A stretch of DNA of 64,000 nt from Gelidibacter mesophilus DSM 14095 (lineage in GTDB: Bacteria > Bacteroidota > Bacteroidia > Flavobacteriales > Flavobacteriaceae), in NCBI RefSeq assembly GCF_000423005.1, contig NZ_AUHD01000001.1, forward strand, positions 682,001 through 746,000. The letters are read 5' to 3'. Positions 20,577 through 39,731 of this stretch are shown in pieces; position 1 is the first letter of the stretch, and each line of letters starts with the position of its first letter. Under the pieces are notes generated by a model that was given only the letters and a program-made list of their open reading frames with translations, did not search any database and was not told where the DNA came from. The translations under genes were made by a program, and so were the position numbers.

Positions 20577-21347
20577 CTAAACGAGGTTTAGTCCCGCGTT
20601 TTTATATGCCTTGAGTTCAGGAGCTTTGGGCTCAAAATCGGTGACCACGGTGCCAATGTCATTGAAACCGCAGACGTCATAATTGAGAATTGAGTTTAAT
20701 TTATTGTAAGTCGCAAGATAGACCGTATGTTGGGAAGCACTAATCATCGCTTTTTTGATCAGTGAAACCTCATATCCTTCATCAGTAATGCCTTGCTCAA
20801 GACTTAAGGCACTCACCCCTATAAAACAGAGATTTGCTCTTAGGTTTGATAAATATTGTATCACATCAATACCCGTCGTCACCATGGAGCTTCTGTGGAT
20901 TTTGCCACCAATAAAGATGGTTTCAATTAAGGGATGCTCCGTTAATTGCATCGCAATAGGTAAACTATAAGTGTAAATGGTTGCTTTTAACTTTTTAGGC
21001 AATAATTTAGCAAGAATTAAATTGGTGGTTCCGCCACTCATTATAATAACCATGCCGTCCTCAAGTAGAGTGATCGCTTTAAGGGCAATTCGGACTTTGT
21101 TTTCTCTGTTGTATATAACGTCTTCATTATAATGATATAATTTTTGGATGGTAGAGATGGCGCCTCCATGCACTTTGGTTAGCAATCCCCGATCATCCAA
21201 TTCTTTTATGTCCCTCCTGATAGTGTCTTCAGATACCTCAAGTTTTTCAGACAAAAAACTGGAATTAACTCTTCTATTGATGCTTACCTCATCAATTATT
21301 TTTTGCTGACGTTCTTTTTTTTTCATGAAAATTTTTTGTTTTTTCAA
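20577..21347 (-). CDS. DeoR family transcriptional regulator
   Basis: Probable repressor of the adjacent amino-sugar locus. The N-terminal winged helix has the DeoR signature (VSEDTIRRDIKELDDRGLLTKVHGGA). The remaining ~190 residues form the phosphosugar-sensing DeoRC domain, with MSGGTTNLILAKLLP at the ligand pocket and FIGVSALSLEQGITDEGYE further on. Two start codons are possible, 21347 and the seventh-codon Met region at 21326; the shorter one begins MKKKERQQKIIDEV, as usual for the family. It is divergent from susC with an 849-bp gap containing repeated TTGCA boxes. DeoR proteins typically bind a sugar phosphate, here plausibly MurNAc-6-P or GlcNAc-6-P (inference). Confidence 0.88.
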   Translation of the reverse strand: MKKQKIFMKKKERQQKIIDEVSINRRVNSSFLSEKLEVSEDTIRRDIKELDDRGLLTKVHGGAISTIQKLYHYNEDVIYNRENKVRIALKAITLLEDGMVIIMSGGTTNLILAKLLPKKLKATIYTYSLPIAMQLTEHPLIETIFIGGKIHRSSMVTTGIDVIQYLSNLRANLCFIGVSALSLEQGITDEGYEVSLIKKAMISASQHTVYLATYNKLNSILNYDVCGFNDIGTVVTDFEPKAPELKAYKNAGLNLV

Positions 21348-22196
21348 ACTAATTTGAAATCATGTGCATAAAGCCTTCTAAATGTATGCAAAATATTGCA
21401 TGTTTTGACATTCAATATTGCAAAATAGGATAAAATAGGATAAAATTTGATGCTGTCTATTTTGAAATTCTGCTAAAATATGAAATTATGAGTAGTTCTT
21501 TAAGGTTAATTTCAATGGATGTGACGATAGTTTTCCCTTGATATTTGTAGTTCTTTTACTTAGAAAGCTCTCGTTACGCGCTAGTATCAATAAAATTTGA
21601 TCTTTTAAATTCTTTTACTCTTGGATAACATTGGATCTTTTTGGGCTTACGCTAAGTTTGGGCTCTATAATTCAATTTTGAATAGAGTCACATAAAAGTT
21701 GTTTCATAGTGACTTACAATAGCATAGAATCTGATTTTATGTTATACGGTTCAAGGCATCTTAATGAGTGTTTCATTACGAAATTGGAAGCTATTGTCTT
21801 GAGTATGGTATTTGATTCATGCTATTTAGAGTGTAATGTGTCCATAAGCATTTGCGTTAAGGTGTATTCTGAAAAAAAGCAAACCTTTGATTTGTATTAC
21901 AGAATATAGAATTGGTCTCAATATTCAAATTTTGGGCTCAGTAAGATTTTGAATTAGAAAGAACATTAGAATTTGATGCTATGCAATTTGGCCGAGTGAG
22001 GCTTGTTCAAAATCATAGAATGATTTGCTGTAAAAAGCCAAATCAATAATTAAAACTGACCCTTTTGAGCAAAATAAATCAAATACCTAGGTAGTATTAT
22101 GCTTAAATTGCAATAAACGTGCATAATTTTGCAAAAAACATGCGTGTTTTAGATTTTTTTACTATTTTTATTAAAAATTAACTAAATCTTAACTTT
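21348..22196. promoter_or_regulatory. Long divergent control region between deoR-type regulator and susC
   Basis: 849 bp without a credible gene; a 66-codon frame at 21709-21909 shows no coding character. TTGCA/TGCAA boxes cluster at both ends: 21387-21422 next to the regulator and 22108-22133 next to susC. Near the regulator they form TGCAAAATATTGCA followed by TGTTTT; near susC the stretch 22130-22150 reads TGCAAAA, then ACATGCGTGTTTT. A 10-bp palindrome TACCTAGGTA sits at 22084-22093. These are candidate operators, not proven. Confidence 0.5.
21422..21451. repeat. Short tandem repeat (10-bp unit)
   Basis: Two exact copies of AAAATAGGAT followed by a diverged third copy AAAATTTGAT, immediately beside the TTGCA boxes upstream of the DeoR gene. 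Possibly part of a regulatory site. Confidence 0.6.
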
Positions 22197-25100
22197 ATGA
22201 AAAATTATTGTTGTCAATTAATTGCCATATTATTTTTGTTTGTTGTGCAAAGTTCTTTTGCGCAATCTGCATCAATATCTGGTGTGGTAACTGAAAAGGG
22301 AAGTGGCATGCCATTAATAGGTGTGAATGTTGTTGTTGAGGGAACGTCAAATGGAGCTGTCACAGATTTTGATGGAAATTATACCATTAAAAGCGCCAAC
22401 GCATTACAGGGTAAAACTCTTGTTTTTAGCTTTGTTGGTTATAAGACCGTTACAATAGGTATTGAGAGTAATACTCAAGTGCTGAATGTTGGCATGGAAG
22501 AAGATGCTACAAGTTTAGATGAAGTCGTTGTAACGGCCTTAGGTATTAAGCGGGAGTCAAAAGCTTTGGGGTATTCATTGACCCAAGTGGATGGTGATGA
22601 GATTTCTCAGGTAAAGACTACGAGTGCGGTCAATTCATTGCAGGGTAGGGTAGCTGGTGTTAATGTTTCTACAAGTAGTGCCGGAGCAGCAGGTTCAAGC
22701 AGGGTTGTTATTAGAGGTGCCAGTTCGTTAACGGGCAACAATCAACCGCTCTATGTAGTTGACGGAATTCCGGTTATTAATAATACCAAAAGCTCTGTTG
22801 TAGGACCAACCAATGATGGAACAGGAGACGGGGGAGATGACATTTCTTCGATCAATCCAGATGATATAGAATCTATTTCTGTTTTAAAAGGAAGTTCTGC
22901 AGCGGCCTTATATGGTTCGTTGGCCTCTAACGGGGTTATCATGATAACTACAAAATCTGGAAAAGGAAAAAATAATCTGGGTATTGAATTTTCGAGTTCT
23001 TATACCTTTGATAAAGTCAACACGGATCTTCAAGATTTTCAAACAACCTATGGGCAAGGTGATAATGGTTTGAGACCTGGCTATGAGTTTGATGCCAATA
23101 ATAATCCTGTTGAAATTGCAAATATGGCGAATGCCATTGATGATTCCTTTGTGAGCACATTACAGTCTTGGGGCGCTAAAATGGATGGCTCTATGGTCTA
23201 TAATTGGGATGGTGTTAGGAGGCCCTATTCTTATAAAGGTAATAATTTGGATAAATTTTATGATACCGGTACGACAGCTGTAAATACACTCGCTTTGTCA
23301 AAGGGTGGTGATGGTTATAACTATCGATTTTCAATGTCAAATTTGGACAATGCTGATATTTTTCCGAATTCTACTTTAAACAGAAAATCTTTATCCTTAA
23401 ATGCTTCTGCCAAGATTAATCCAAGGTTAACCTCTACTGTTAACGCCAAATATGTAATTGAAAAGGTACATAACCGGATCAATATTGGAGATACACCCGG
23501 AAATGCAAATACCGTGGCAAATGTACTGCCTAGTACTTTAGATATTAACGACTTAAAGCCGGGTTCAAATACGGAAGGTACGGAGCTTTTATTTCAGCCT
23601 AGCCAGTTTATTTCCAATCCATATTGGGCAGTAAACGATTTTAATAATGATGATAAAAAGAATCGATTAACAGCGTCTACCGTTCTGCGTTATGACATCA
23701 CGGATTGGTTATATTTAACAGGACGAGCGGGAATAGACACTTATGATTTTGCTAGAAGAGCCGTCACGCCTTATGGAACAGCATACCGTCCAGGTGGAGA
23801 GATGAGTCAATCAAAATCCACGTATACTTCATTTGATGCCGATGTGATGTTGGGAATTGAGAAAGGCATTACCGATAAAATCTCTACGAATTCTATAATT
23901 GGAGCCAATACAAGGTCTTCAACTTTTGAGCAATTGAGCGCCCTTGGGAGAGGCTTTATCGTAATTGGTTTGGAGGACATAAATAATACAACTTTACCAG
24001 AGCCAGATAATGAGTATTTTAAAACAAAAACGAATTCACTTTATGGTTCCTTTGAAGTGGATTATGGAAAATTCTTTTACTTAACTTTTACGGGAAGAAA
24101 TGATTGGTTCTCTACGCTTTCTTATCCTGGCAAAGAAACTCCAAACAATGATTTTTATTGGTCTTTAAGCGGAAGTTTGTTGCTTAGTGAGGCCTTTAAT
24201 TTGCCAAACGCATTTAATTATTTAAAATTGAGAGGGAGTTATGCCCAAGTGGCGGGTGGTGCCCAAAATGCTTATGCGCTCAATTTGGATTATGCGGTTA
24301 CAGGATCATTTCAAGGTCAATCTTTTGGCCAGTTAAATGGCAACTCCATCCCAAACCCTAATTTAGTACCATTCCAGAAAGATGAAGTAGAGGTTGGATT
24401 GGAAGGCCGTTTCTTTAATAACCGTTTGAATTTGGATGTGGCGTATTACCAAAATGAAACCACAAATGACATCGTTCGCGCAGCTGCCTCTCAGTCATCA
24501 GGGTTTACATCCTCCATATTGAACATTGGTGCCCTTCAAAACAAGGGTATTGAATTGTTGATAGGCGGTACTCCAATTCAAACAGATGATTTTTCATGGA
24601 ATACCTCCTTCAACCTAGGATATAACGATAGTGAAATACTTCGTACGGATGAAGAGGATACTCCAATAAATGTTGATGGTAGTCAAACACGTTCTAGAAC
24701 AGCAATCATCTCTCACATTGTTGGTGAACACTACGGGGTCATTTATGGCTCATCCTATAAAAGGGACGAATCAGGAACTATTATGTATGACATTAGTGGT
24801 GGTCTACCAAAACCTATTCAAGGCGAAAATAAGATATTAGGACAGGGAGTAGCACCTTATACGTTAGGATTCTCGAATTCTTTTAGATATAAAAATATAA
24901 CCTTAGGGTTTTTAATCGATGCTAAATATGGTGGTAGTGTACATTCTGGTACTAACCGAGAGCTTTTATTAAGAGGCTTGCATAAAAAGACACTAGAAGG
25001 TCGTGAAAATGGTTTGGTAGTTTCTGGCATTGATGATGCTACAGGTAATCCTTTCACCGCAACTGTGGCTCCAGAAAATTTAAGAACCTATTATGGCGTT

Positions 25101-25388
25101 ATTTTGGAGGAGAGTAGAGGAATTTCAGAAGAGGTTGTCTATAGCACTGATTTTATCAAATTTAGAGAATTAAGTCTTTCTTACAGTCTTCCAAACAAGA
25201 TCTTAAAAGACCTTTTTATTAATGACTTAAGACTTTCATTAATTGCTAGAAACCTGTTCTTTATATCGAAAGATATTGATAACGTCGATCCTGAGGCCGC
25301 GCTGAACAACTTGAATTCCCAAGGAATTGAAAGATTTGGTATTCCATCAACCAAAAGCTATGGATTTTCTGTAAACGTTAAATTTTAA
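22197..25388 (+). CDS. SusC/RagA-type TonB-dependent outer membrane transporter
   Basis: Outer-membrane transporter that with its SusD lid imports glycan fragments. Signal peptide MKNYCCQLIAILFLFVVQSS ends at SFAQ; a carboxypeptidase-regulatory-like domain follows (SISGVVTEKGSGMPLIGVNV, about residues 26-105), then the plug (TALGIKRESKALGYSLTQ through VRISG-like VVIRGASSLTGNNQPLYVVDGIP) and the 22-strand barrel ending in an aromatic residue (VNVKF). It is 1063 residues, normal for SusC. It is first in the operon and 11 bp before susD. Context with NamZ, MurQ and NagZ suggests peptidoglycan-derived glycans as substrate (inference). Confidence 0.93.
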   Translation: MKNYCCQLIAILFLFVVQSSFAQSASISGVVTEKGSGMPLIGVNVVVEGTSNGAVTDFDGNYTIKSANALQGKTLVFSFVGYKTVTIGIESNTQVLNVGMEEDATSLDEVVVTALGIKRESKALGYSLTQVDGDEISQVKTTSAVNSLQGRVAGVNVSTSSAGAAGSSRVVIRGASSLTGNNQPLYVVDGIPVINNTKSSVVGPTNDGTGDGGDDISSINPDDIESISVLKGSSAAALYGSLASNGVIMITTKSGKGKNNLGIEFSSSYTFDKVNTDLQDFQTTYGQGDNGLRPGYEFDANNNPVEIANMANAIDDSFVSTLQSWGAKMDGSMVYNWDGVRRPYSYKGNNLDKFYDTGTTAVNTLALSKGGDGYNYRFSMSNLDNADIFPNSTLNRKSLSLNASAKINPRLTSTVNAKYVIEKVHNRINIGDTPGNANTVANVLPSTLDINDLKPGSNTEGTELLFQPSQFISNPYWAVNDFNNDDKKNRLTASTVLRYDITDWLYLTGRAGIDTYDFARRAVTPYGTAYRPGGEMSQSKSTYTSFDADVMLGIEKGITDKISTNSIIGANTRSSTFEQLSALGRGFIVIGLEDINNTTLPEPDNEYFKTKTNSLYGSFEVDYGKFFYLTFTGRNDWFSTLSYPGKETPNNDFYWSLSGSLLLSEAFNLPNAFNYLKLRGSYAQVAGGAQNAYALNLDYAVTGSFQGQSFGQLNGNSIPNPNLVPFQKDEVEVGLEGRFFNNRLNLDVAYYQNETTNDIVRAAASQSSGFTSSILNIGALQNKGIELLIGGTPIQTDDFSWNTSFNLGYNDSEILRTDEEDTPINVDGSQTRSRTAIISHIVGEHYGVIYGSSYKRDESGTIMYDISGGLPKPIQGENKILGQGVAPYTLGFSNSFRYKNITLGFLIDAKYGGSVHSGTNRELLLRGLHKKTLEGRENGLVVSGIDDATGNPFTATVAPENLRTYYGVILEESRGISEEVVYSTDFIKFRELSLSYSLPNKILKDLFINDLRLSLIARNLFFISKDIDNVDPEAALNNLNSQGIERFGIPSTKSYGFSVNVKF

Positions 25389-25399
25389 AAAAATTGAAA

Positions 25400-26887
25400 A
25401 TGAAAAAAATACTAATATTACTAGCAATAGTTGTCATGTTTGGATCATGTGATGAAGGTTTTGAGGAACTTAACGTCAACCCCACTAAACCTACTCAATT
25501 AGATCCCTCAACTAAGTTGACATTTATCCAATTATATACAGGGGGCAGTAGTTATGTGGCTACGCTATTTTATAACGTGATTCATTTGATGCAAAATGTT
25601 CAGCATCTTAATAATACGTCCTATGTGTCCTTTCTATATAAAGAAGGAAATACCCATCAGTTATTTGAAGAGCAATTTTCAAATACAGTTAAAAATATTG
25701 TGGACTTAGAGGCACAACTGCAAACGAGCACAAGCCCAACTGCGCCAACAGATTTGGCAATTGCAAAAGTTCAAAGGGTCCTTATCTTCAGTAGGCTTAC
25801 TGATGCTTACGGAGATATCCCTTATAATGAAGCAGGTAAAGGCTTTCTGGAAGGCGTCAGGTTTCCAAAATATGACAAACAAAGTGAGATCTATCAAAAT
25901 ATGTTGGAGACCTTAGAAAGTTCTGCAGCAGCACTAGGCAATGGAGCGGTTAGCTCTTATGGCTCAGCCGATTTGTTATTTGCAGGAGATACTGATAAAT
26001 GGAGAAAATTTGCCAACTCTTTGATGTTGCGCCTAGCTATGAGAATGGTAAATGTTGATGAGGCCGCAGCTAAAACTTGGGCAACCAAGGCCATTGCAGG
26101 TGGTGTTATGGAGAGCAACGCGGATATTGCTTTTATACTATATGAAGACTCTGCTAACGATGGTGGTCCTAATGTTAACCCACTTACAAAAAGCTTTACC
26201 TCTAGAACGCCTACACAAATAAAAATATCCAAAACACTTATGGATTATATGAAAGATAGAAATGATCCTAGGGTTTCAGTTCTATTTTCAACGGTGGATG
26301 GAGACACAGACTTTGCGCTTCAATCTGGTCAAGACATCAATGTATCTACAAGAGGTACAGCAAATTCAAAACCAAATATTAATATTTTTGGAGGTTCTGG
26401 AAACATTGTTTACGATGCTCCTTTATTCTTTCAAACTTACGCTGAAGTAGAATTTATGCTTGCCGAGGCGGCGGAACGTTGGGGACTTGCAGGTGGTAAT
26501 GTAGAGACCCACTATAATGCAGGCGTAACTGCAGCTATGCAGTACCTTTCTTTATATGGACATGGCGTAGCCATTACGACGGATCAAATTGATACCTATT
26601 TGGCAGCGAATCCTTTTGTGCCTGCTCAGGCATTGAAAATGATTAACGAGCAATATTGGGTCGCTACTTTTGGAAATGGCTTAGAAACATTTTCAAATTG
26701 GAAAAGATCAGGATATCCTATTCTGGTGCCTGCAAATGTAGCCGATTTACTCACAGATGGTCAAATTCCAAGACGCTTACCGTACCCTGGTTCTGAAAAG
26801 TTAAATAATCCAGAAATGCTAGAGGCAGGAATTCAACAACAAGGAGGCGATGACCTTTTGACAAGAATGTGGTGGGATAAAAATTAA
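25400..26887 (+). CDS. SusD/RagB family surface glycan-binding lipoprotein
   Basis: Lipoprotein lid of the preceding SusC. The ATG here (MKKILILLAIVVMFGSC) gives a lipobox at FGSC; a TTG two codons upstream is a less likely start. The early FEELNVNPTKPTQ motif and the helical TPR-like body (LIFSRLTDAYGDIPYNEA, LMLRLAMRMVNVD) place it in the SusD-like group found in many flavobacterial loci. The C-terminus (RMWWDKN) is typical of the group. It is followed by a strong hairpin before the next gene, which could reduce read-through so that susCD is expressed more strongly than the catabolic genes. Confidence 0.92.
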   Translation: MKKILILLAIVVMFGSCDEGFEELNVNPTKPTQLDPSTKLTFIQLYTGGSSYVATLFYNVIHLMQNVQHLNNTSYVSFLYKEGNTHQLFEEQFSNTVKNIVDLEAQLQTSTSPTAPTDLAIAKVQRVLIFSRLTDAYGDIPYNEAGKGFLEGVRFPKYDKQSEIYQNMLETLESSAAALGNGAVSSYGSADLLFAGDTDKWRKFANSLMLRLAMRMVNVDEAAAKTWATKAIAGGVMESNADIAFILYEDSANDGGPNVNPLTKSFTSRTPTQIKISKTLMDYMKDRNDPRVSVLFSTVDGDTDFALQSGQDINVSTRGTANSKPNINIFGGSGNIVYDAPLFFQTYAEVEFMLAEAAERWGLAGGNVETHYNAGVTAAMQYLSLYGHGVAITTDQIDTYLAANPFVPAQALKMINEQYWVATFGNGLETFSNWKRSGYPILVPANVADLLTDGQIPRRLPYPGSEKLNNPEMLEAGIQQQGGDDLLTRMWWDKN

Positions 26888-26912
26888 ATCAAAATAGATG
26901 GGATGAATAATT

Positions 26913-26957
26913 GAGGTGAGGGAATTAAAATTTCACAACATTTAATGCCCTCACCTC
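26913..26957 (+). terminator. Strong intergenic hairpin after susD
   Basis: A perfect 10-bp stem GAGGTGAGGG / CCCTCACCTC, extended inside by ATTAAA / TTTAAT, followed by a T-rich tail (TTTATTTATT). It looks like an intrinsic terminator or attenuator within the locus. Confidence 0.75.
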
Positions 26958-26996
26958 TTTATTTATTAATGGTATTTAGAAAATGATTTCGATATT

Positions 26997-28184
26997 TTGA
27001 AAAAAGTAAGTTCAGGTCTTGATGTTTTGGTAGCTGATGGCAATCTTCAAAAGAAATTCCGTGGAAATGTTGCCTTATTGGCCCATAATGCCTCAGTTGA
27101 TTCTAGTTTGGTTCATGCTTCTTTGAGATTTAAGGAGTTTTTTGGCTCGAGGTTCGTGAAATTGTTTGGACCTCAGCACGGCTTTGCCACCGATGCTCAG
27201 GACAATATGATTGAAACTGATCATGTTGTCCATCCGTATTTTAATATTCCCGTGTATTCTTTATACTCTGAAATCCGAGTGCCTACAGATAAAATGCTCG
27301 AAGGAATTGACCATCTGTTTGTTGATTTGCAGGATGTTGGCTGCCGGATGTATACTTACATTTATACTCTGACCTTGCTATTGGAAAAATGTAGCAATAG
27401 AACTATTGAAATTATAGTTCTGGATAGACCCAATCCTTTAAACGGTGTGGATTTGGAAGGAAATATATTAGATCTTCATTTTGAATCGTTCATAGGCAGG
27501 CATCCTATTCCTGTACGTCATGGTATGACCATTGGTGAAGTTGCCTTGATGCACCAAAAATATTGGGCTAAAGAGAGCACTAATTTGAAGATCATAAAAA
27601 TGCAGAATTGGGAACGCCAGATGTATTTTGGAGATACTGGGTTGCATTGGCTTTTGCCATCACCAAATTTGGGAAGGCCAGAGAGTGCTCTAACTTTTCC
27701 TGCCATCGTTCTTTTTGAAGGCACGTCCTTAAATGAGGGAAGGGGGACAACGCAAGCCTTAGAAATTTTAGGCCACCCAAAAATTGAATCTTTCTCATTT
27801 TTTAATGATCATTTAGGTGCTAAAATAAAGGCCTCTGCCTTAGAAGGTTTTGTTTTAAGACCAATCACTTTTATTCCTACCTTTCATAAACAGATGGATC
27901 AAGTTTGTGGTGGCTTGCAGCTTCATGTTACTGATCGGTCCAAATACAAACCTTGGCGCACTGGTCAATTCCTGTTAAGAGAAATCTATCATTATTTGGG
28001 TGATCAATTTAAATGGTTACATCCTCCATACGAGTATAATTACACACAACAACCAATTGATATTATTAACGGAACGGATAAATTAAGACATTGGGTCACC
28101 CAAAATGGATCCATAGAAGAATTGGATGATTTTGAGAACTTAAAAAATTATAAGTTACAGCTAGAAGCCATTAAGATCTATTAA
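26997..28184 (+). CDS. DUF1343/NamZ-like exo-beta-N-acetylmuramidase (GH171 family), no signal peptide
   Basis: DUF1343 proteins are exo-muramidases (NamZ) that remove MurNAc from the non-reducing end of MurNAc-GlcNAc. Family motifs visible: KLFGPQHGFATDAQDN (56-70), LFVDLQDVGCRMYTYIYTL, IVLDRPNPLNG, PVRHGMTIGE, PSPNLGRPESAL and FEGTSLNEGRGT. The start is TTG: the upstream ATG at 26983 ends after five codons and no in-frame ATG exists before the conserved region. There is no signal peptide, so a cytoplasmic location is predicted, unlike the second paralogue in this locus. Q60 stands where the second paralogue has Glu (APEHG). Such PQHG forms occur elsewhere in DUF1343, so this may be a distinct subfamily. 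395 residues is the normal length. Confidence 0.85.
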   Translation: MKKVSSGLDVLVADGNLQKKFRGNVALLAHNASVDSSLVHASLRFKEFFGSRFVKLFGPQHGFATDAQDNMIETDHVVHPYFNIPVYSLYSEIRVPTDKMLEGIDHLFVDLQDVGCRMYTYIYTLTLLLEKCSNRTIEIIVLDRPNPLNGVDLEGNILDLHFESFIGRHPIPVRHGMTIGEVALMHQKYWAKESTNLKIIKMQNWERQMYFGDTGLHWLLPSPNLGRPESALTFPAIVLFEGTSLNEGRGTTQALEILGHPKIESFSFFNDHLGAKIKASALEGFVLRPITFIPTFHKQMDQVCGGLQLHVTDRSKYKPWRTGQFLLREIYHYLGDQFKWLHPPYEYNYTQQPIDIINGTDKLRHWVTQNGSIEELDDFENLKNYKLQLEAIKIY

Positions 28185-28288
28185 AGTATTTTTGGCGATT
28201 ATTATTTTTAACGCTTAAAGAGCGCAGACGTTTCCCGAGAATTTAACCAACCAAATTAACCTATCAAAAATATAAACCGAACACACCA

Positions 28289-29758: not shown

Positions 29759-29781
29759 TAGCTAATTAAATTTTAAATCCT

Positions 29782-30603
29782 ATGGAACATAAATTGACCA
29801 CCGAACAAGCGTCGGATTATAATGATTTAGAAAAGATGGACACCTGTGAGTTGCTCCTAAATATGAACACAGAGGACAAAACGGTACCTAAAGCGCTTGA
29901 AAAAGCTATCCCCCAAATACAAAAATTAGTCGATGCTGTGTATTCCAAAATGAAAGATGGCGGACGACTATTTTATATAGGAGCTGGTACCAGTGGCCGT
30001 TTAGGAGTTTTGGATGCCTCAGAATGTCCCCCAACTTATGGCGTTCCCGATACGCTGGTTATCGGCATTATTGCTGGAGGCGATGGTGCGCTTCGGAAAG
30101 CAGTGGAAAATGCCGAAGATAATACCGAGCTTGCTTGGGAGGATCTAAAAAAACACAACATTACCTCAGACGATGTGCTAATTGGGATTGCCGCTTCCGG
30201 CACCACACCCTACGTGATAGGTGGCGTGAAAACGGCGCGTCAGCATGGTATTATTACAGGGTGCATTACCTGTAATGAAAAGTCACCCTTAGCTCTTGAA
30301 GTTGATCATCCCATAGAATTGGTGGTTGGCCCTGAGTTTGTAACGGGAAGCACAAGAATGAAAGCAGGAACTGCTCAAAAACTAGCCTTAAATATGATTT
30401 CTACCACGGTAATGATCAAGCTAGGAAGGGTACGTGGCAACAAAATGGTGGATATGCAACTTTCAAATAAGAAACTGGTTACAAGGGGCGTTCAAATGAT
30501 CATGAATGAAACCCACGTGGATGAAACAACGGCTAAAGCGCTTTTGAACGAACATAAAAGCATCAGAAAAGCTATTGACACTTATAATTCAAATAAAAAA
30601 TGA
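29782..30603 (+). CDS. murQ: N-acetylmuramic acid 6-phosphate etherase (MurQ)
   Basis: Cytoplasmic enzyme that splits the lactyl ether of MurNAc-6-phosphate to GlcNAc-6-phosphate and D-lactate. The SIS-domain signature is complete: GAGTSGRLGVLDASECPPTYG (67-87, E81 the expected catalytic acid/base) and GPEFVTGSTRMKAGTAQKLALNM further on. 273 residues is slightly shorter than E. coli MurQ (about 300). Its last codon overlaps the GH3 start codon as ATGA, so the two are translationally coupled. This gene is the strongest single clue that the locus handles MurNAc. No MurNAc kinase gene is visible nearby. Confidence 0.95.
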   Translation: MEHKLTTEQASDYNDLEKMDTCELLLNMNTEDKTVPKALEKAIPQIQKLVDAVYSKMKDGGRLFYIGAGTSGRLGVLDASECPPTYGVPDTLVIGIIAGGDGALRKAVENAEDNTELAWEDLKKHNITSDDVLIGIAASGTTPYVIGGVKTARQHGIITGCITCNEKSPLALEVDHPIELVVGPEFVTGSTRMKAGTAQKLALNMISTTVMIKLGRVRGNKMVDMQLSNKKLVTRGVQMIMNETHVDETTAKALLNEHKSIRKAIDTYNSNKK

Positions 30604-32291
30604 AAAAGATTTTACCACTAGTTCTTTTGGCAACGTTGACCTTGGCTTCTTGTGCCAAAATCCCTGCCAAACGGACCATTGAAATCGACCATAAAACCCA
30701 ATGGGTAGACAGTGTTTACAATTCCATGTCGCTAAAGGAAAAGGTGGGCCAGTTATTTATGGTCAGTGCCTATTCCAACAGAAGTGAATCTCATACGGAT
30801 TCTATTCAACAATTGATAAATGACTATCATATTGGCGGACTTATATTCTTTCAGGGAGGTCCGATGCGTCAAGCAAAACAAACCAATCATTACCAATCCA
30901 TTTCTAAAGTACCCTTGTTTATAGGAGTTGATGGTGAATGGGGGTTGAATATGCGGTTAGATAGCACCTCAAGATATCCGTATAATATGACTTTGGGTGC
31001 GATTTCCAATAATGACATCGTTAAAAAAATTGGCGAACAAATAGGGAAGGATTGCAACCGAATGGGCATCCACATCAATTTTGCGCCGGTGGTGGATATC
31101 AACACAAATTCAAAAAACCCTGTAATTGGCGTACGCTCTTTTGGTGAGGATAAAGTGAATGTCACTGAAAAAGCATGGGCGTTTACTGATGGTATGCAGA
31201 GCACTGGCGTTCTTGCTTGTGCCAAGCACTTTCCGGGACATGGTGATACCGATACCGATTCGCACAAAACACTCCCAACAGTTTCTTTTTCAAAAGAAAG
31301 GATAAATGAAATAGAGCTTTATCCATATAAAGAATTGTTTAAAAAAGGTATTGCAGGGGTCATGGTCGCCCATTTAAATGTGCCCAGTTTAGAAAGCCAA
31401 GAAGGGTTGCCATCTTCGCTATCCTACAAAATAGTATCGGAGCTGTTAAAGGATCAATTGAATTATGACGGTCTTATTTTTACGGATGCTTTAAATATGA
31501 AAGGTGCAGCCGATTACGGAGAACCTGGAGATATTGATTTGGCCGCATTTAAAGCTGGAAATGATGTGCTACTTTTTACGGTAGACGCTCCCAAAGCTAT
31601 TTTAAAAATTATGGAAGCGCATGATCAAGAAAGTATCTCTGAAGCCCGATTGGCCCATTCTGTAAAAAAAATACTTGGAGCAAAATTTGACGCAGGGTTA
31701 AATAATTATGCACCCATTAAAATGGAAGGTTTGGTAAACGATTTGAATCAAGATATAAATGTTGAATTATATGCTGCCGCCATTGAAAATGCGATAACGC
31801 TTATTAAAAATGAAAATCAGATGTTGCCATTAAAAACGAGCGCAAAAGACACTATCGCCTTCTTAAAGTTGGGAGATGCTTCTGCTGATCAATTTTTGAC
31901 AGAATTAAAATCTAGAGCTCATGTCATTGATATTTCAAGTCTTTCAGCGAAACTAACACTAGAAAAACTTTCAGAATACGACAAAATTTTTATCAGTCAC
32001 CATCGTGAAAATAGCAGAATTACGAGTGCCATTTCCGATGAAGATAGACATCTGATTGAAAGTATTTCAAAAAATCACAAAACCATCTTGACCGTATTTG
32101 CAAGTCAATATAGTTTAAAGGAAACAGATTTAAAAGATGTTGAAAGTGTATTGGTTGCTTACGAAAATTCAGAGGTAGCAAATCGAATTACGGCGGATAT
32201 TATTTTTGGAGCAGCTGATGCGAAAGGGACCTTGCCGGCATCAATAACAAACGATTTTTCAGTTAATACGGGTATCAAAACGTCGAAATAA
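30600..32291 (+). CDS. NagZ-type GH3 beta-N-acetylglucosaminidase, lipoprotein
   Basis: Exo-enzyme removing non-reducing GlcNAc, for example from GlcNAc-MurNAc. The NagZ-specific loop KHFPGHGDTDTDSH (209-222) supplies the Asp-His acid/base dyad (D220, H222); the nucleophile is D296 in IFTDALNMKG. GVDGEWGLNMRL and NFAPVVDIN are also typical. The N-terminus is a lipoprotein signal (LLATLTLASC), so it acts in the periplasm or on the outer membrane, not in the cytoplasm as E. coli NagZ does. About 200 C-terminal residues form a GH3_C-like alpha/beta sandwich. There is no fused beta-lactamase-type domain of the kind some Bacteroidota homologues carry. Confidence 0.9.
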   Translation: MKKILPLVLLATLTLASCAKIPAKRTIEIDHKTQWVDSVYNSMSLKEKVGQLFMVSAYSNRSESHTDSIQQLINDYHIGGLIFFQGGPMRQAKQTNHYQSISKVPLFIGVDGEWGLNMRLDSTSRYPYNMTLGAISNNDIVKKIGEQIGKDCNRMGIHINFAPVVDINTNSKNPVIGVRSFGEDKVNVTEKAWAFTDGMQSTGVLACAKHFPGHGDTDTDSHKTLPTVSFSKERINEIELYPYKELFKKGIAGVMVAHLNVPSLESQEGLPSSLSYKIVSELLKDQLNYDGLIFTDALNMKGAADYGEPGDIDLAAFKAGNDVLLFTVDAPKAILKIMEAHDQESISEARLAHSVKKILGAKFDAGLNNYAPIKMEGLVNDLNQDINVELYAAAIENAITLIKNENQMLPLKTSAKDTIAFLKLGDASADQFLTELKSRAHVIDISSLSAKLTLEKLSEYDKIFISHHRENSRITSAISDEDRHLIESISKNHKTILTVFASQYSLKETDLKDVESVLVAYENSEVANRITADIIFGAADAKGTLPASITNDFSVNTGIKTSK

Positions 32292-32323
32292 CCCAATAGT
32301 AATTCATATTAAAACAGATAACT

Positions 32324-33793
32324 ATGAAAAGAATTCTACACATAAAGATCATCATTTTATTTGTCTTTATGACCATTCAAACCATGCTAGCACAGGAGGT
32401 AATTCTGGAAGGCCCACACCAAATGCAAAAAAAAGAATTTGGTAGGCTTACAGCAGATGTCATACAAGAAGATGCACGCAAAAATGCCGAAAACATCAAT
32501 GGTTTAAATGCTCTAAGAGTACCTACTATGAATAAAAAGGTATTTGGTTTTTTACCGTATTGGGAGCAGAGTTCAGGTGCTCATAGCAATATCCGCTACG
32601 ATTTGTTGACCCATTTGGCATGTTTTGATTTTTTGGTTCAATTGGACGCTTCAATAAAACCACCTGTAGGATGGCCGTGGACAGCAGAAATTAATGCCGC
32701 TCATGCACAAGGCGTTAAGGTAATTATGACGGTCGTAAATTTTGGTGGTTCTGATGGTGCGGATGCTGTTGTGTGGGAATTGATTACAAATCCAACTAAG
32801 AAAGCCCAATTTTTCGCCAATGTCAAGAATTTAATTCAAACCTATAATTTAGATGGGGTGAATATTGATTTTGAAGGAATGGCCTCTGCGCATAGGGGTG
32901 CAGAATTGAATAATTTTTTGGCTGATCTCACTACTTTTATTCATGCCGAACTTCCGGGAAAAGAGGTGTCTTTTGATGGACCGGCCGTGAATTGGGGTGG
33001 ATGGATTATTGAAGATTTGGTGGCTAGTGTTGATTACGTTGTTATTATGGCTTACGACTATACTTCTGCAAACGGAGCCAATTCCGGCCCCATAGCACCC
33101 TTGACACATCATACCTCATGGAAACGTTTTGTTAAACGTACCATAGAAACAGGCACCTATGCCGTGCCAACTGCAAATACTCCTGAAAAATTGATAATGG
33201 CAGTACCTTATTACGGACAGCATTGGAAAACAGCTACTAACGTTTCTGAATCAGCAACCATCTCCCATGTATCTTCAACTCGCTATAGAAATACAGTAAC
33301 GGAAGCAGACAACCACGGTGGTTTTATATGGAATTCAGACTTTGAATATCCTTGGTATCGATGGAATGATGGAACTAACTGGAACCAAGTGTGGACCGAT
33401 AACGAACAGAGTATCTCTAAAAAGTTCGACTTGGCAATTGCCAACAATCTAGGCGGCGTAGGGATGTGGGCATTAAATTATGATGGCGGTCGTCCAGAAC
33501 TTTGGGATTTGATCAATACTAAGTTTGGTGAAACTGCTTCTGTTGGTGATGTGAATTTGATGCAAATTAAAATTCATCCCAATCCTACAGTAGATTATGT
33601 GTTTATATCAAATATTAACGCCGTGAACTTTACTAAAATGGAACTCTTCAATATTTTGGGCGCTTCTGTTTTAATAGTGACCTCTAATTTTGAAAGTATA
33701 AACATGACAAGTTTTGAAAATGGCTTATATTTTTTAGAAATTGAGGATATTAGAGGTGAAAAGGCCACATTTAAAATATTGAAGTCCAATTAA
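32324..33793 (+). CDS. GH18 family glycosidase with T9SS type A tail
   Basis: Secreted beta-1,4-N-acetylglucosaminidase/chitinase-type barrel. Signal peptide MKRILHIKIIILFVFMTIQ ends near MLAQ. The GH18 fold starts at KKVFGFLPYWEQ; the catalytic signature is DGVNIDFEG (177-185, acid E184), and YVVIMAYDYTSANG gives the substrate-binding Tyr. About 75 C-terminal residues (IKIHPNPTVDYVFIS through ENGLYFLEIED) are a T9SS type A sorting domain, so the enzyme is exported across the outer membrane. In this locus it may be an endo-cutter of chitin- or peptidoglycan-like strands; GH18 includes both chitinases and YaaH-type peptidoglycan hydrolases. Specificity is undetermined. Confidence 0.88.
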   Translation: MKRILHIKIIILFVFMTIQTMLAQEVILEGPHQMQKKEFGRLTADVIQEDARKNAENINGLNALRVPTMNKKVFGFLPYWEQSSGAHSNIRYDLLTHLACFDFLVQLDASIKPPVGWPWTAEINAAHAQGVKVIMTVVNFGGSDGADAVVWELITNPTKKAQFFANVKNLIQTYNLDGVNIDFEGMASAHRGAELNNFLADLTTFIHAELPGKEVSFDGPAVNWGGWIIEDLVASVDYVVIMAYDYTSANGANSGPIAPLTHHTSWKRFVKRTIETGTYAVPTANTPEKLIMAVPYYGQHWKTATNVSESATISHVSSTRYRNTVTEADNHGGFIWNSDFEYPWYRWNDGTNWNQVWTDNEQSISKKFDLAIANNLGGVGMWALNYDGGRPELWDLINTKFGETASVGDVNLMQIKIHPNPTVDYVFISNINAVNFTKMELFNILGASVLIVTSNFESINMTSFENGLYFLEIEDIRGEKATFKILKSN

Positions 33794-33805
33794 AAATCGA
33801 AAATT

Positions 33806-35020
33806 ATGAAATATCTATTTTTATCTTTTATTTGCCTATTAGCTTGTAATGATACTACTAAAAAAGATCAAGCTAAAGAGGAGAGCAGAGGCACCCCTGA
33901 TGTGAATAACTCAGCAATCGTAACAGGTGCCAATCAAACAGACGTCTACCTTAAGCTTTTAGAGGGTAAAAATGTGGGTGTTGTTGCCAACCAAACTAGC
34001 GTCATTTTTAAAGATGCCAACAAAGAGCAGCATACTCATCTTGTTGATTCATTATTGGCAATGAATGTTGAGGTGACTAAAGTATTTGCGCCTGAACATG
34101 GATTTAGAGGCGTTGCAGATGCGGGTGAACATATAGAAGACGGTGTTGATGAAAAAACAGGCTTACCTATATTATCACTTTATGGGGATAACAGAAAACC
34201 ACCTGCCGCGTTTTTAAAAGATATTGACGTCATGCTTTTTGATATTCAAGATGTTGGCGTTCGTTTTTACACCTACATCTCAACCTTGCATTATGTGATG
34301 GAGATTTCCGCCGAACTTAACGTGCCAATAATTATTTTAGACCGGCCAAATCCTAACGGACATTATATTGATGGCCCTATTCTGGAAAGTGACGTTAAAA
34401 GTTTTGTGGGTATGCACCCCGTGCCTATTGTATATGGCATGACCATTGGCGAATATGGAAAGATGATTAATGGCGAAAAATGGTTGGAAAATGGTCTGCA
34501 TTGTGATCTTACCGTAGTGCCACTTAAAAATTATAGCTACGCTTCTGAATATGATTTGCCTATAAAACCATCGCCAAACCTTCCAAATGCAACCGCCATT
34601 AATTTATATCCGAGCGTTTGCTTTTTTGAAGGCACAACAGTAAGCTGTGGACGTGGTACCGAAATGCAATTTCAGGTATTTGGAGCGCCATTTTTGCCAG
34701 AAGACACATTCAAATTCAGTTTTACCCCTGAACCAAATTTTGGTGCAAAAACACCAATGCATCAAGGAGAGCTGTGTCACGGGCTAGATTTAAGAAGTGT
34801 TGAACCTCTTAATGAAGTGCGATTGGATTGGGTCATTGAAGCCTACAATGGTTCCGATAAAAAGACCTTTTTTAATGATTTTTTCAAAAAACTTGCGGGC
34901 ACCACAAAGTTGCAACAGCAGATAGAAGAGGGGATGTCTGGGGAGGAAATAAAAGAAACCTGGAAACCTGGATTGGAAGCTTTTAGGAAAACAAGAAGTA
35001 AATACTTAATGTACAATTAA
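33806..35020 (+). CDS. DUF1343/NamZ-like exo-beta-N-acetylmuramidase (GH171 family), lipoprotein
   Basis: Second NamZ-type protein of the locus. N-terminal lipoprotein signal with lipobox LLAC (Cys14), so periplasmic or outer-membrane. Family motifs: KVFAPEHGFRG (E97 is the likely conserved active-site Glu), LFDIQDVGVRFYTYISTL, ILDRPNPNGH, PIVYGMTIGEYGKM, PSPNLPNATAINLYPS and CFFEGTTVSCGRGTEMQF. It is clearly homologous to the first copy but belongs to the PEHGFRG type. 404 residues. It starts 12 bp after the GH18 gene. The expected role is removal of non-reducing MurNAc from fragments, alternating with NagZ. Confidence 0.88.
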   Translation: MKYLFLSFICLLACNDTTKKDQAKEESRGTPDVNNSAIVTGANQTDVYLKLLEGKNVGVVANQTSVIFKDANKEQHTHLVDSLLAMNVEVTKVFAPEHGFRGVADAGEHIEDGVDEKTGLPILSLYGDNRKPPAAFLKDIDVMLFDIQDVGVRFYTYISTLHYVMEISAELNVPIIILDRPNPNGHYIDGPILESDVKSFVGMHPVPIVYGMTIGEYGKMINGEKWLENGLHCDLTVVPLKNYSYASEYDLPIKPSPNLPNATAINLYPSVCFFEGTTVSCGRGTEMQFQVFGAPFLPEDTFKFSFTPEPNFGAKTPMHQGELCHGLDLRSVEPLNEVRLDWVIEAYNGSDKKTFFNDFFKKLAGTTKLQQQIEEGMSGEEIKETWKPGLEAFRKTRSKYLMYN

Positions 35021-35166
35021 TTGGGGGATAGGATTCAGTCCAATGAATTCTTTAAGAACCAAAGTTTTTAAAGGTGAAGATTTATTCGCATTTTGAATGC
35101 TTTTGCTTGAGCAAAATTAGGCTCTATTATAGTTGTCATTTTTTCCAAAACAAAATATAGAAACGG

Positions 35167-37692
35167 ATGAAAAAAGCACTTTTATTTTTTAGTCTTTTAG
35201 TGGTACTCTCAGCTGCCAAGCCCATAGATACGGACTCTAAAGAAAACGCGGTTATTAGGATCAATCAATTGGGCTATACACCAAATTCTATAAAGGTTGC
35301 CGTATTTGGCGCTCTTGAGAAGGCCACGATTGATTCTTTTGCGCTCCATGATGCCGTTACGAACCAGGTGGTATTCAGCTCAAAAACATTAGAAGCAAAA
35401 GGTGCTTATGGTCCATTCCAATCATCATACCGTTTGAACTTTAGTAAATTTAGTGCGCCTGGGAAATACTATATTCTTGCCAAAGGCGTGAAATCTCCCG
35501 AATTCCGAATCAATGCAGATGTTTATGATCATACTGCCGATTTTTTAATGGAATATATGCGGCAGCAGCGTTGTGGCTATAATCCGTATTTAACCGCTTC
35601 CTGTCATTTGGATGATGGCTATATTCTCTATAATCCTGAGAAGAAAGGAGAGCGTATGGATGCGACCGGTGGATGGCACGATGCTTCCGATTATTTGCAA
35701 TATACCGCCACTTCGGCCAATGCGGTTTTTCAATTGCTTTTTGCTTACCGTGATCATCCGGAAGCGTTTGATGATGCTTATGACGCTAAAGGATTGCCAG
35801 GTCCGAATGGCATTCCCGATGTTATAGATGAAGCAAAATTTGGCATGGATTGGCTCAAAAGAATGAATCCTTCCACTACAGAATATTATAACCAGATTGC
35901 TGATGACCGCGATCATTCGGGATACCGATTACCCAATAAGGACTCAGTTGTTTATGATCCAAATCAGAAGGGACGTCCCGTCTATCTGGCAAGTGGTGAA
36001 AAACAAGGGATATTAAAATACAAAAACAGATCTACTGGAGCGGCATCCACAGCAGGGAAATTTGCTTCAGCCTTTGCAATCGGTGCGAAGGTATTGGCCG
36101 AATTTTATCCTGAATATTCTGAAGACCTTACAAAGCGTGCTGAAGATGCCTATAAATATGGCGAACTACATCCCGGAGTAAGTCAGACAGCACCCGGTCG
36201 TTCTCCATATTTCTATGAAGAAGACAATTGGGTTGACGACATGGAGCTGGCGGCGAGCAGTCTTTATAAACTGACAGGAAACGAAGGTTACAGGAAAAGT
36301 GCTTTAAAATATGCTTCTGAAGAGAAGGTTACACCTTGGATTGGGCGAGATACAATTTTACACTATCAGTATTATCCTTTCTTAAATGCGGGCCATCATG
36401 AATTGGCATCAGCCATGCCATCCGAAGAAAAAAGGGAAGTAACTGCTTATTACCAAACAGGATTGGAGCTTCTGCATGAACGTGGCAAGGAAAATCCTTT
36501 TTATATCGGAATTCCTTTTGTTTGGTGTTCAAATAACTTTGTAACCGCTGCGGTCACCCAGAGCAAGTTATATCATAATCTAACTGGTGATGACACGTTT
36601 CTAGAAATGGAAGCGGCACTCCGCGATTGGCTTTTTGGATGTAATATTTGGGGAACCTCCATGATTGTGGGGTTACCTGATTTTGGAGACACCCCAATAG
36701 ATCCACATTCTTCTTTAACACATTTGGAAGGTTATCCCGTAAATGGTGGTTTGATTGATGGACCGGTCTATGGATCAATTGCCAATAGTTTGATAGGGGT
36801 TGAACTTCATAATCCCGATGAATACGCGCGTTTTCAATCGGACTTAGTAGTCTATCAAGATGATGTAGGAAGTTATGCTACAAACGAGCCTACAATGGAC
36901 GGTACCGCGTCATTGGTCTATTACCTGTCTTCTCTTGAAAGTGAAAGTTGGAAAACAGGCCATCAAAAGAAGCGGTATCGCTATGATAATAGTGGCGCGA
37001 TTGTTCGAGGCGACAGCTCGGAAAGGAAAATTAGCCTGTTGTTTTCAGCGCATGAGTATGCCGATGGCGCCTCGGAAATATTGCGTATTCTCGAAAAGCA
37101 CGGAATCAAAGCGTCCTTCTTTCTAACGGGTGATTTTTACAGGAATCAAAATTTTAAATCGTTCGTAGAAAGCGCAAAAAATCAAGGTCATTATTTAGGG
37201 GCCCATTCTGATAAGCATTTGCTTTATAATGATTGGACAAAGGAAAAAAAGCGTTTGGTTTCCCAAGAAGAATTTAAACATGATCTCAACGCCAATTATT
37301 CAGAAATGGAAAAATTTGGCATTCAGAAAGGCGATGCACCCTATTTTTTACCGCCTTACGAATGGCATGACAATATCATTACCCAATGGGCAGATCAAAT
37401 ACAACTTACCACCATCAATTATAGTCCAGGTACCTTGTCCCATGCAGATTATACGATTCCTGAGCTGAAGAACTACAGAAGTGCCGAAGCGATCATGGCG
37501 TCTATTTTGTCATTGGAGGAAACGGAAGGTTTGAATGGATTTATGTTGCTTTCACATTTGGGTACTCATCCCGATCGTACCGATAAGTTCTACTCCAAGT
37601 TGGACAATCTTATTTTAATCTTAAAAGAACGTGGGTATCAATTTGAAAGCTTGAAAGATATTTTGGATTTAAAAGGGCGGGTAACCAACTAA
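35167..37692 (+). CDS. GH9 glycoside hydrolase fused to a NodB-like polysaccharide deacetylase domain
   Basis: Two-domain secreted enzyme with signal peptide (MKKALLFFSLLVVLSAAKP). Residues about 28-120 form a CelD_N/Ig-like domain (IRINQLGYTP). The GH9 barrel carries the conserved acidic pair in GGWHDASDY (D172, D175) and the acid Glu in NEPTMDG (E574). From about 620 there is a CE4/NodB-type domain: the metal-binding HSxxH motif is intact (H680, H684) but the usual TFDDG is replaced by LLFSAHEYADG, so the catalytic and metal Asp pair looks lost or moved. GH9 includes exo-glucosaminidases of amino-sugar loci as well as cellulases, and context favours an amino-sugar substrate (inference). It lies 146 bp after NamZ2. 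Confidence 0.82.
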   Translation: MKKALLFFSLLVVLSAAKPIDTDSKENAVIRINQLGYTPNSIKVAVFGALEKATIDSFALHDAVTNQVVFSSKTLEAKGAYGPFQSSYRLNFSKFSAPGKYYILAKGVKSPEFRINADVYDHTADFLMEYMRQQRCGYNPYLTASCHLDDGYILYNPEKKGERMDATGGWHDASDYLQYTATSANAVFQLLFAYRDHPEAFDDAYDAKGLPGPNGIPDVIDEAKFGMDWLKRMNPSTTEYYNQIADDRDHSGYRLPNKDSVVYDPNQKGRPVYLASGEKQGILKYKNRSTGAASTAGKFASAFAIGAKVLAEFYPEYSEDLTKRAEDAYKYGELHPGVSQTAPGRSPYFYEEDNWVDDMELAASSLYKLTGNEGYRKSALKYASEEKVTPWIGRDTILHYQYYPFLNAGHHELASAMPSEEKREVTAYYQTGLELLHERGKENPFYIGIPFVWCSNNFVTAAVTQSKLYHNLTGDDTFLEMEAALRDWLFGCNIWGTSMIVGLPDFGDTPIDPHSSLTHLEGYPVNGGLIDGPVYGSIANSLIGVELHNPDEYARFQSDLVVYQDDVGSYATNEPTMDGTASLVYYLSSLESESWKTGHQKKRYRYDNSGAIVRGDSSERKISLLFSAHEYADGASEILRILEKHGIKASFFLTGDFYRNQNFKSFVESAKNQGHYLGAHSDKHLLYNDWTKEKKRLVSQEEFKHDLNANYSEMEKFGIQKGDAPYFLPPYEWHDNIITQWADQIQLTTINYSPGTLSHADYTIPELKNYRSAEAIMASILSLEETEGLNGFMLLSHLGTHPDRTDKFYSKLDNLILILKERGYQFESLKDILDLKGRVTN

Positions 37693-38894: not shown

Positions 38895-39731
38895 TTATTC
38901 TATTCGTGGCACCACTAAAAATGGAATAATAGAATGAAATCCTAATTTTCTAATAACCGGCTCCTTAATAAAGTCTTCTAGAAAGCTATGTTCATAATTG
39001 ACCATGGTAACAATGTTAATGGTCTTTTGTTCAATGAAATTGAGGATTGCATGCTCTTTTGTACCCTTATCTGGAACAAAATGGAAACTGTGCGGATGTG
39101 CTTCTAAATAAACTTTCAAAGCCTCTCGATTGGTTTCCTGAATTTCTGAAAGTCCGTCTTTACCAGTAATATGGAGGACTTCAATTTTTGATTTATGCAA
39201 GTCAGCTAATTTTAGGATTGGCAGTAACTCCTCATCATAAATTCTATTCAAATCAGTAGGGAAAGCAATGTGTTGCGGCTTTACAAATTCGAAGGTATTC
39301 GGCACTAATAATATTGGACAAAGCCATATTTTATTAATGACTGAAACGGTATTGCTTCCAAGTAGAAATTCTTTAGCTCCAGTAGCGCCTTTAGTCCCCA
39401 TCACCACCAAATTAATGTGATGCTTTTTAATGGCATATTTTATGGAATCTATTAAAAGCTCATCACTAAATAGGGTTTGAAATTCATGATCAGTATTTAT
39501 AGTTTCCAATTTGGCACGTTCTTGTAGAGCTGTCAACTGCGCTTTTGAATCGTCTTTAAGTTTATCTATATAACTTGGGGAAATATAAGTTCTTGATCCC
39601 GTGTTTACAAAAGTCCAGGCGTGTGAAAAGTAAAATGTAGCGGCCTGATTGGCATAAAGTTTTATGGCGTAAAGTGCAGCGCTCCATGCGTTTTCTGAAA
39701 AATCTGTGGGTATTAAAACGTGATGTCTCAT
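38895..39731 (-). CDS. Universal stress protein, tandem UspA domains (copy 1)
   Basis: Two-domain UspA-type protein. The first domain begins HHVLIPTDFSENAWSAALYA and ends with the ATP-binding signature GTKGATGAKEFLLGSNTVSVINK (G-x2-G-x9-G-S/T pattern); the second starts at HIAFPTDLNRIYDEEL but lacks an obvious glycine-rich signature. Cytoplasmic. It is a paralogue of the next gene at exactly the same length (278 aa) and with strong similarity across the whole chain. A TAGCTTTG element lies about 27 bp upstream. In Bacteroidota such proteins are usually induced in stationary phase or by redox and energy stress. Confidence 0.9.
   Translation of the reverse strand: MRHHVLIPTDFSENAWSAALYAIKLYANQAATFYFSHAWTFVNTGSRTYISPSYIDKLKDDSKAQLTALQERAKLETINTDHEFQTLFSDELLIDSIKYAIKKHHINLVVMGTKGATGAKEFLLGSNTVSVINKIWLCPILLVPNTFEFVKPQHIAFPTDLNRIYDEELLPILKLADLHKSKIEVLHITGKDGLSEIQETNREALKVYLEAHPHSFHFVPDKGTKEHAILNFIEQKTINIVTMVNYEHSFLEDFIKEPVIRKLGFHSIIPFLVVPRIE

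Follow-up and report, generated by a model that had tools for sequence, protein, structure and literature searches.

We analysed a window of 64,000 nucleotides from Gelidibacter mesophilus DSM 14095 (contig NZ_AUHD01000001.1, positions 682,001 to 746,000), in which a gene block at 20577-37692 probably forms, as judged from its sequence, a polysaccharide-utilisation locus (PUL) for bacterial wall glycan containing N-acetylmuramic acid (MurNAc). The original prediction had named ten genes in this block, and all of them were found at their coordinates with family matches (Table 1). They are a divergent DeoR gene, followed by SusC, SusD, a first DUF1343/NamZ gene (NamZ1), a sodium:solute symporter (SSS), MurQ, a NagZ-type protein of glycoside hydrolase family 3 (GH3), a GH18 protein with a type IX secretion system (T9SS) tail, a second NamZ (NamZ2), and a fusion of GH9 with carbohydrate esterase family 4 (CE4). 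The nine forward-strand genes are separated by gaps of 5, 109, 104, 23, −4, 32, 12, and 146 bases, and the next gene-sized open reading frame (ORF) listed 3′ of the block lies on the opposite strand. Given this spacing, the opposite-strand ORF, and the divergent deoR, a single co-directional block is a fair reading, and the nine forward genes are probably co-transcribed. In addition, neither Rfam (at gathering threshold) nor a tRNA scan gave a match in the window, and the promoter scan (71 sites against 57.4 expected) and the terminator scan (17 against 13.2) were uninformative.

Table 1. Coordinates of the block, its predicted regulatory elements, and a NagX-type gene downstream
Feature	Position	Strand	Matches and remarks
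DeoR-family regulator	20577..21347	-	PF00455 3e-37, PF08220 3.7e-14; adjoins 9/9 Gelidibacter loci compared
Predicted DeoR operator, ATGCA-N6-TGCAT palindrome	21386..21401	.	<=1 mismatch
SusC-type TonB-dependent transporter	22197..25388	+	TIGR04056 7.9e-188
SusD-type lipoprotein (SusD-like_2)	25394..26887	+	PF12771 9.1e-83
Stem-loop directly 3′ of susD, then T-rich stretch	26913..26957	+	z -5.2
NamZ1, DUF1343/NamZ family	26997..28184	+	PF07075 1.1e-71, PF20732 6.7e-36; TTG start uncertain
SSS sodium:solute symporter, putative MurNAc importer (MurT-like role)	28289..29758	+	PF00474 3.6e-19
MurQ, MurNAc-6-phosphate etherase	29782..30603	+	TIGR00274 339.8 bits, cut-off 302
NagZ-type GH3 lipoprotein, predicted beta-N-acetylglucosaminidase	30600..32291	+	PF00933 1.6e-79; motif KHFPGHGDTDTDSH
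GH18 with T9SS sorting tail, predicted secreted peptidoglycan endo-N-acetylglucosaminidase	32324..33793	+	PF00704 8.2e-33
NamZ2 lipoprotein, predicted exo-N-acetylmuramidase	33806..35020	+	PF07075 2e-78; closest solved 4jja 1.2e-111
GH9 - CE4-like deacetylase fusion	35167..37692	+	PF00759 4.4e-65, CelD_N 5.9e-20, PF01522 3.5e-12
NagX/HGSNAT-type membrane acetyltransferase, outside block	43664..44749	-	PF07786 2.5e-13 (HGSNAT_cat)

The block has the hallmarks of a SusCD PUL: susC and susD are adjacent, and carbohydrate-active enzymes (two NamZ, GH3, GH18, GH9, and CE4) and the DeoR gene are linked to them. Meanwhile, other genes point to muramic acid. MurQ, the etherase of murTKQ-type loci, scores above its curated cut-off and is the sole strong MurQ match in its own genome (G000). 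The SSS gene, 23 bases 5′ of murQ and beside it throughout the genus, is a candidate transporter of the murTKQ type; it exceeds the cut-off of PF00474 and stays below that of TIGR00813 (138.9 bits, cut-off 184).

The conserved motifs were counted in aligned rows, and because each of the pairs L073/L032, L075/L035, L076/L033, L077/L036, and L270/L080 comes from a single genome, these counts overstate the number of independent sequences. The NagZ motif KHFPGHG-x4-DSH, to which we ascribe a role in NagZ function, was kept in all 28 aligned GH3 rows, window included, and the nearest solved relatives of the GH3 protein were the GH3 beta-N-acetylglucosaminidase 6k5j and YbbD/NagZ. NamZ2 includes NamZ_N and NamZ_C, its N-terminus looks lipoprotein-like by eye, and PEHG was found in 17/17 rows and in both solved relatives. 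We take the glutamate of PEHG to be the catalytic residue of NamZ. In NamZ1, PQHG replaces PEHG in all seven subgroup rows (six genomes, window included), no signal peptide was seen by eye, and an in-frame stop codon lies 30 bases upstream of the assumed TTG start. Given PQHG and the presumed role of the glutamate, NamZ1 may lack activity, have a changed one, or reside in the cytoplasm; and as it also has no signal peptide, the pair of NamZ genes need not stand for two exo-muramidases.

The closest solved relative of the GH18 protein was YdhD (1.6e-19), followed by a cortical-lytic enzyme (6.3e-12) and a chitinase (3.9e-11). Its T9SS tail matched TIGR04183 (about 8.4e-9 to 9.3e-9). Furthermore, the GH18 motif reads DGVNIDFE in 8/8 rows from six genomes, with Asn in place of the middle Asp of DxxDxDxE. 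The aligned chitinases keep this Asp, and the block protein lacks the full chitinase signature.

Because the SusCD substrate was the least secure inference, SusD alone was used as a query against 397 genomes of the family (threshold 1e-60). Among the 59 matches, 13 (own genome included) were 65-100% identical; the remaining full-length matches were at most 52% identical, and a partial match at 54% (G556) was left out of the fetched loci. SSS, MurQ, GH3, and NamZ lay beside SusD in 11 of the 13 genomes with a SusD of at least 65%; in one of the other two (G631) the locus is cut off at a contig end. MurQ was found in none of the 12 fetched second-tier loci (SusD 46-52%), and an ORF of 1,112-1,117 residues stood next to SusD instead in the three second-tier loci with listed ORFs. 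The SusD clade therefore tracks the MurQ locus (11/13 vs 0/12), which supports the original prediction of a MurNAc/peptidoglycan PUL, with the limit that these genomes are related and their loci are not independent events. The conservation of murQ and DUF1343 beside SusCD, on which that prediction had staked itself beforehand, mostly held (11/13), and G794 is an exception. In several sister loci (L080 7700-9988, L078, L079, L265, L266, L268, and L270), SSS and MurQ are separated by a DUF6259 protein, which was found in none of the Gelidibacter loci.

The comparison within the genus covered nine Gelidibacter loci (the window and G001-G008; L074, cut at a contig end, was left out). DeoR, SSS, MurQ, and GH3 were present in all nine, with the SSS of G002 in two reading frames, and NamZ2 was present in all except G008. 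There were six loci with GH9-CE4 (window, G001, G003, G005, G006, and G007), five with GH18 (window, G003, G005, G006, and G007), and five with the window-type SusC and SusD (window, G001, G004, G006, and G007). A second MurQ, at 61-62%, was also found in G003, G005, G007, and G008. In addition, a NagX-like gene comes next after DeoR in seven loci, those of the window and G007 being without it. Broken nagX remains in several pieces with stops were found in G007 (L036 1330-2416, E 1.35e-10), and in G. algens (G002; L032 about 8190-8390) the stretch from nagX to SSS still holds two fragments of NamZ1, which suggests that SusC-SusD-NamZ1 was lost there. These remains of nagX and namZ1 mark gene loss at the locus. 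A candidate nagX relic in the deoR-susC gap of the window was rejected (12-residue match, E 0.65, not significant). Meanwhile, G008 carries another DeoR-SusC-SusD set (L037 716-6672), of the SusD_RagB-like seed type, beside its SusCD-less block. The SusC and DeoR of L037 are equal in length to those of F. weaverense L151.

Loci of other lineages, in which the genes are ordered differently, came from a MurQ scan (80 of 273 relatives kept), and a MurQ relative was found in 348 of 395 genomes of the class. MurQ was the sole seed family in 40 of the 80 loci, SSS occurred in 23 and SusD in 20, including 17 with the two together; these tallies include shorter loci and repeated genomes, and the seed hidden Markov models (HMMs) were built from loci that they then matched, with a sample checked by Pfam. 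All nine Pontibacter loci include SusD, GHL10, a phosphoesterase/PQQ protein, MurQ, SSS, an FAD-linked oxidase with Fe-S motifs, DeoR, a NagX-like gene, and GH3, together with Amidase_2 in eight and GH9 and CE4 in seven (counts by seed HMMs, with Pfam run on nine L094 proteins and one from L084). SusC was seen in two of them, and in the others the stretch read begins about SusD. The F. weaverense locus, with six genes confirmed by Pfam, includes NagB-like, DeoR, SusC, SusD, NamZ, MurQ, SSS, GH3-beta-lactamase, AnmK, DUF5009/NagX-like, and GHL10. G077 and G293, from one genus, share SusC, SusD, GH9, CE4, MurQ, and SSS, and add GHL10 (G077) or NamZ (G293). In G031 we found GH3, a BadF-type kinase (below the Pfam cut-off), MurQ, GHL10, a major facilitator superfamily protein, AnmK, an FAD-linked oxidase, GH9, and CE4; SusCD was not seen in this locus.

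The SusDs differ in type: the window and Pontibacter have PF12771, whereas G293 and F. weaverense match SusD_RagB best. Repeated recruitment of SusCD is therefore probable. The FAD-linked oxidase, which has a homologue (63%) elsewhere in G000, may be a D-lactate dehydrogenase; if so, it would fit the release of D-lactate by MurQ. DigH is, we assume, a member of GHL10. In E. coli, DigH cleaves denuded strands, according to a passage of PMC12288456. The Muricauda locus L081, in which AnmK was confirmed, was rejected as a SusCD locus: its SusD-like ORF had no Pfam match, and its SusC/SusD had been named by eye and used as seeds. We also observed NagZ-type GH3 proteins fused to a beta-lactamase-family domain (L084 17928-20783 and L151 12456-15473); RmNag3 of Rhodothermus is described with a beta-lactamase-type domain too (PMC6987092, in part).

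Two elements might be related to regulation. The palindrome upstream of deoR, with no more than one mismatch, recurs between the divergent genes in 10/10 loci (nine Gelidibacter and G021), a count made without shuffle control; in G002, the most upstream NagX start, as chosen by the script, touches it. Four other copies with the N6 spacing occur in all ten stretches combined, and other spacings gave more scattered matches. The palindrome is a candidate binding site of DeoR. Meanwhile, the hairpin after susD was more stable than all 200 shuffles in the window, and the same kind of stem was seen in 7/9 downstream stretches (without shuffle control; L078 and L079 end inside the repeat). This stem-loop is possibly an attenuator or an mRNA-protecting hairpin.

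The functions of the NagZ and NamZ families are established. Those of MurT, MurK, and MurQ are established as well, as stated in part of PMC5790795. With these functions, the block could work as follows. The secreted GH18 would cut peptidoglycan strands outside the cell at the bonds between N-acetylglucosamine (GlcNAc) and MurNAc, and SusD and SusC would bind and import the oligosaccharides, as the link between SusD clade and locus suggests. In the presumed location of the periplasm, NamZ2 and GH3 lipoproteins would then alternately remove MurNAc and GlcNAc from the non-reducing ends. SSS would import MurNAc, a BadF-type kinase coded elsewhere would phosphorylate it, and MurQ, by its established family function, would convert MurNAc-6-P to GlcNAc-6-P and D-lactate. 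DeoR would control the block, probably by sensing a sugar phosphate. A BadF-type kinase is indeed coded at G000:C8 (near position 54188; below the Pfam cut-off), with matches to the solved "MurNAc kinase" 8ow9 (2.6e-44) and "N-acetylglucosamine kinase" 8oqk (1.4e-39), and AnmK is also coded elsewhere in G000.

Several observations weigh against a PUL dedicated to MurNAc-containing wall glycan. SusCD is optional within the genus, being absent from four of the nine Gelidibacter loci. The G794 locus (L271) has DeoR, SusC, SusD, a second SusC/SusD, and GH3, with no MurQ or SSS in 19.9 kb, and aminosugar genes also occur in second-tier loci (SSS and NagB in L279, NagB in L276, MurK-like and NagB in L283). 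SSS was rejected as a specific MurNAc marker: relatives at 1e-100 or better were found in 327/395 class genomes, and of the 30 best SSS loci, two (window and G293) had MurQ inside the flank of 1.5 kb, with the MurQ of G352 one gene farther out. Among the ten block proteins, Pfam found no MurNAc kinase, the counterpart of MurK; the block also has no amidase, and no NamZ was found in the nine Pontibacter loci within the 20 kb read. The chitinase is nearly as near to GH18 as the cortical-lytic enzyme, and endoglucanases/cellulases (3x17, 5e-59) lead the profile matches of GH9. GH9-CE4 was likewise rejected as a proof of peptidoglycan use, since MurQ was nearby in only 3 of 21 GH9 genomes (G000, G077, and G293, the latter two from one genus; about 9 kb read on each side). 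Furthermore, the NagX-like proteins of L033 and L094 matched no Pfam family at 0.001.

The GH9-CE4 fusion is the weakest part of the reading. GH9 rows keep HDA(S/G/T)D and NEPT in 37/38 and have PHSS or PHSA in 32/38; PHHR, which we take to be the GH9 cellulase signature and which the solved 3x17 has at this site, was found in 0/38. The proteins 3h7l, 6gdt, and 5dgq, presumably relatives of exo-glucosaminidases, were far weaker matches (1.8e-17 to 7.4e-16). By this ranking, the idea of a GH9 exo-glucosaminidase rests on context and the absent PHHR, not on the nearest relatives. In the CE4 part, whose best solved relatives were 2j13 and PdaA, TFDDG (motif 1 in the numbering that we assume) was found in 0/35 rows and H-S-x-x-H in 35/35, and the AlphaFold model of the fusion had a mean pLDDT (predicted local distance difference test) of 55.8. 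The 21 class genomes with a GH9 match include 9 with fused CE4 (own included), 9 with a separate CE4 nearby, and 3 without nearby CE4. No peptidoglycan theme was seen among the neighbours of the GH9 loci (92/160 ORFs of L183-L201, 25 of 143 families listed); this Pfam tally excluded the GH9 and CE4 ORFs, L192, L196, and part of the outer ORFs, and its most frequent families were Ferritin_2 (4), beta-lactamase (3), DUF2911 (3), and DUF5009 (3).

The NagX-type gene of the window lies 6 kb downstream of the block, is 46% identical to the in-block NagX of a congener, and is the single match in G000. In the part of PMC9007349 that concerns it, mutant fitness data implicate NagX in glucosamine use, and its authors propose acetylation of periplasmic glucosamine. 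For E. coli SddA (PF04748, another family), PMC12440217 describes, in part, GlcNAc deacetylase activity on denuded strands. This precedent makes deacetylation of stripped strands plausible chemistry; it is no evidence for the GH9-CE4 protein. Our tentative suggestion, somewhat more likely wrong than right, is that GH9-CE4 acts on GlcNAc or glucosamine ends through deacetylation and exo-cleavage, and that NagX puts the acetyl group back on glucosamine. The wider idea is doubtful: that Bacteroidota repeatedly built SusCD loci dedicated to the peptidoglycan glycan of other bacteria, with two parallel routes to remove GlcNAc, one through direct hydrolysis by NagZ and the other through an atypical CE4 that deacetylates, a GH9 exo-glucosaminidase, and NagX that re-acetylates the glucosamine.

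The same genes could be explained in other ways. It is unlikely that the cell merely recycles its own wall, with SusCD recovering shed fragments and no feeding on other bacteria. The block MurQ is the one strong match in this genome, whereas four congeners also keep a second MurQ, and AnmK and a BadF-type kinase are present, which would suit recycling; the T9SS-tailed GH18 and SusCD, however, point outward, and recycling needs no such block, since MurQ is widespread (348/395 class genomes) and is the sole seed family in 40/80 loci. Less probable than recycling is a PUL for chitin or chito-oligosaccharides that carries MurQ and NamZ as passengers. GH18, GH3, a deacetylase, and NagX-like genes are indeed what such a locus would hold, the NagX family is often found in chitin operons (PMC9007349, in part), and a chitinase ranks third among the solved relatives of the GH18 protein. 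However, within the genus it is MurQ (9/9) and NamZ2 (8/9) that are kept rather than GH18 (5/9) and GH9-CE4 (6/9), no GH20 match was found among the ten block proteins, YdhD is closest to GH18, and amidase, AnmK, and GHL10 occur in related loci.

We give the lowest probability, a very small one, to import by SusCD of some other aminosugar glycan (for example, a capsule polymer), with MurQ serving a side product only. The DUF6259 protein of several sister loci and the location of GH9-CE4 mostly away from MurQ would agree with it, but the SusD clade tracks MurQ, GH3, and NamZ. Thus, a PUL for MurNAc-containing wall glycan is the reading that we prefer.

Two neighbouring features were also noted in the window. 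Tandem similar proteins are encoded on the reverse strand at 38895-39731 and 40057-40893, the first being a universal stress protein (PF00582), and relatives of this pair lie just outside the block in several congeners. In addition, an Acetyltransf_2 gene of the arylamine N-acetyltransferase type (PF00797 2.2e-64) lies at 42705-43421 on the forward strand.

The walls of bacteria make up a large reservoir of carbon and nitrogen. If the preferred reading is true, muramic-acid glycan joins the range of SusCD substrates, bacteria living on dead bacteria can be recognised by a genomic marker, and single-gene tests become possible for NamZ1, the atypical CE4, and GH9. No SusCD locus dedicated to bacterial wall material was recognised in search results from the open-licence literature of PubMed Central, where the term "NamZ" gave mostly unrelated papers.

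Among known systems, we file the block as a putative SusCD-linked form of the Bacteroidota MurNAc salvage operon. In B. subtilis, NamZ goes by the name ybbC. The Tannerella MurNAc locus had been called small in the original prediction, which does not agree with the description in part of PMC5388701 of Tanf_08345-08385, with ampG, ybbC, and murTKQ, as one transcript. The ampG-ybbC-murTKQ set of Tannerella forsythia resembles the block in its SSS-type MurNAc transporter, its MurQ, and its scavenging of foreign MurNAc, and it differs in having MurK and AmpG in the transcript and activation by GppX (PMC5388701 and PMC5790795, each in part). The block has no kinase, and it has SusC/SusD, the NagZ-type GH3, the T9SS GH18, GH9-CE4, and DeoR instead. 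The word "SusC" is absent from the main text of PMC5388701, in which "SusD" was not searched for.

The chitin operons with NagX, as described in part of PMC9007349, are similar in the GH18, GH3, and NagX-type parts of related loci, whereas MurQ and NamZ, together with the amidase, AnmK, and GHL10 of related loci, point to a muramic-acid glycan. The murein-recovery set of Bacillus subtilis also combines NamZ and NagZ members with MurQ, but the block differs by SusCD import across the outer membrane, T9SS, and SSS instead of a phosphotransferase system. Finally, the block shares with canonical Bacteroidota SusCD PULs the adjacent SusC/SusD, carbohydrate-active enzymes, a divergent regulator, and an inner-membrane importer. 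The usual PUL regulators are SusR, hybrid two-component systems, or extracytoplasmic function sigma factors, whereas the block has a DeoR regulator and a cytoplasmic enzyme for MurNAc-6-P.

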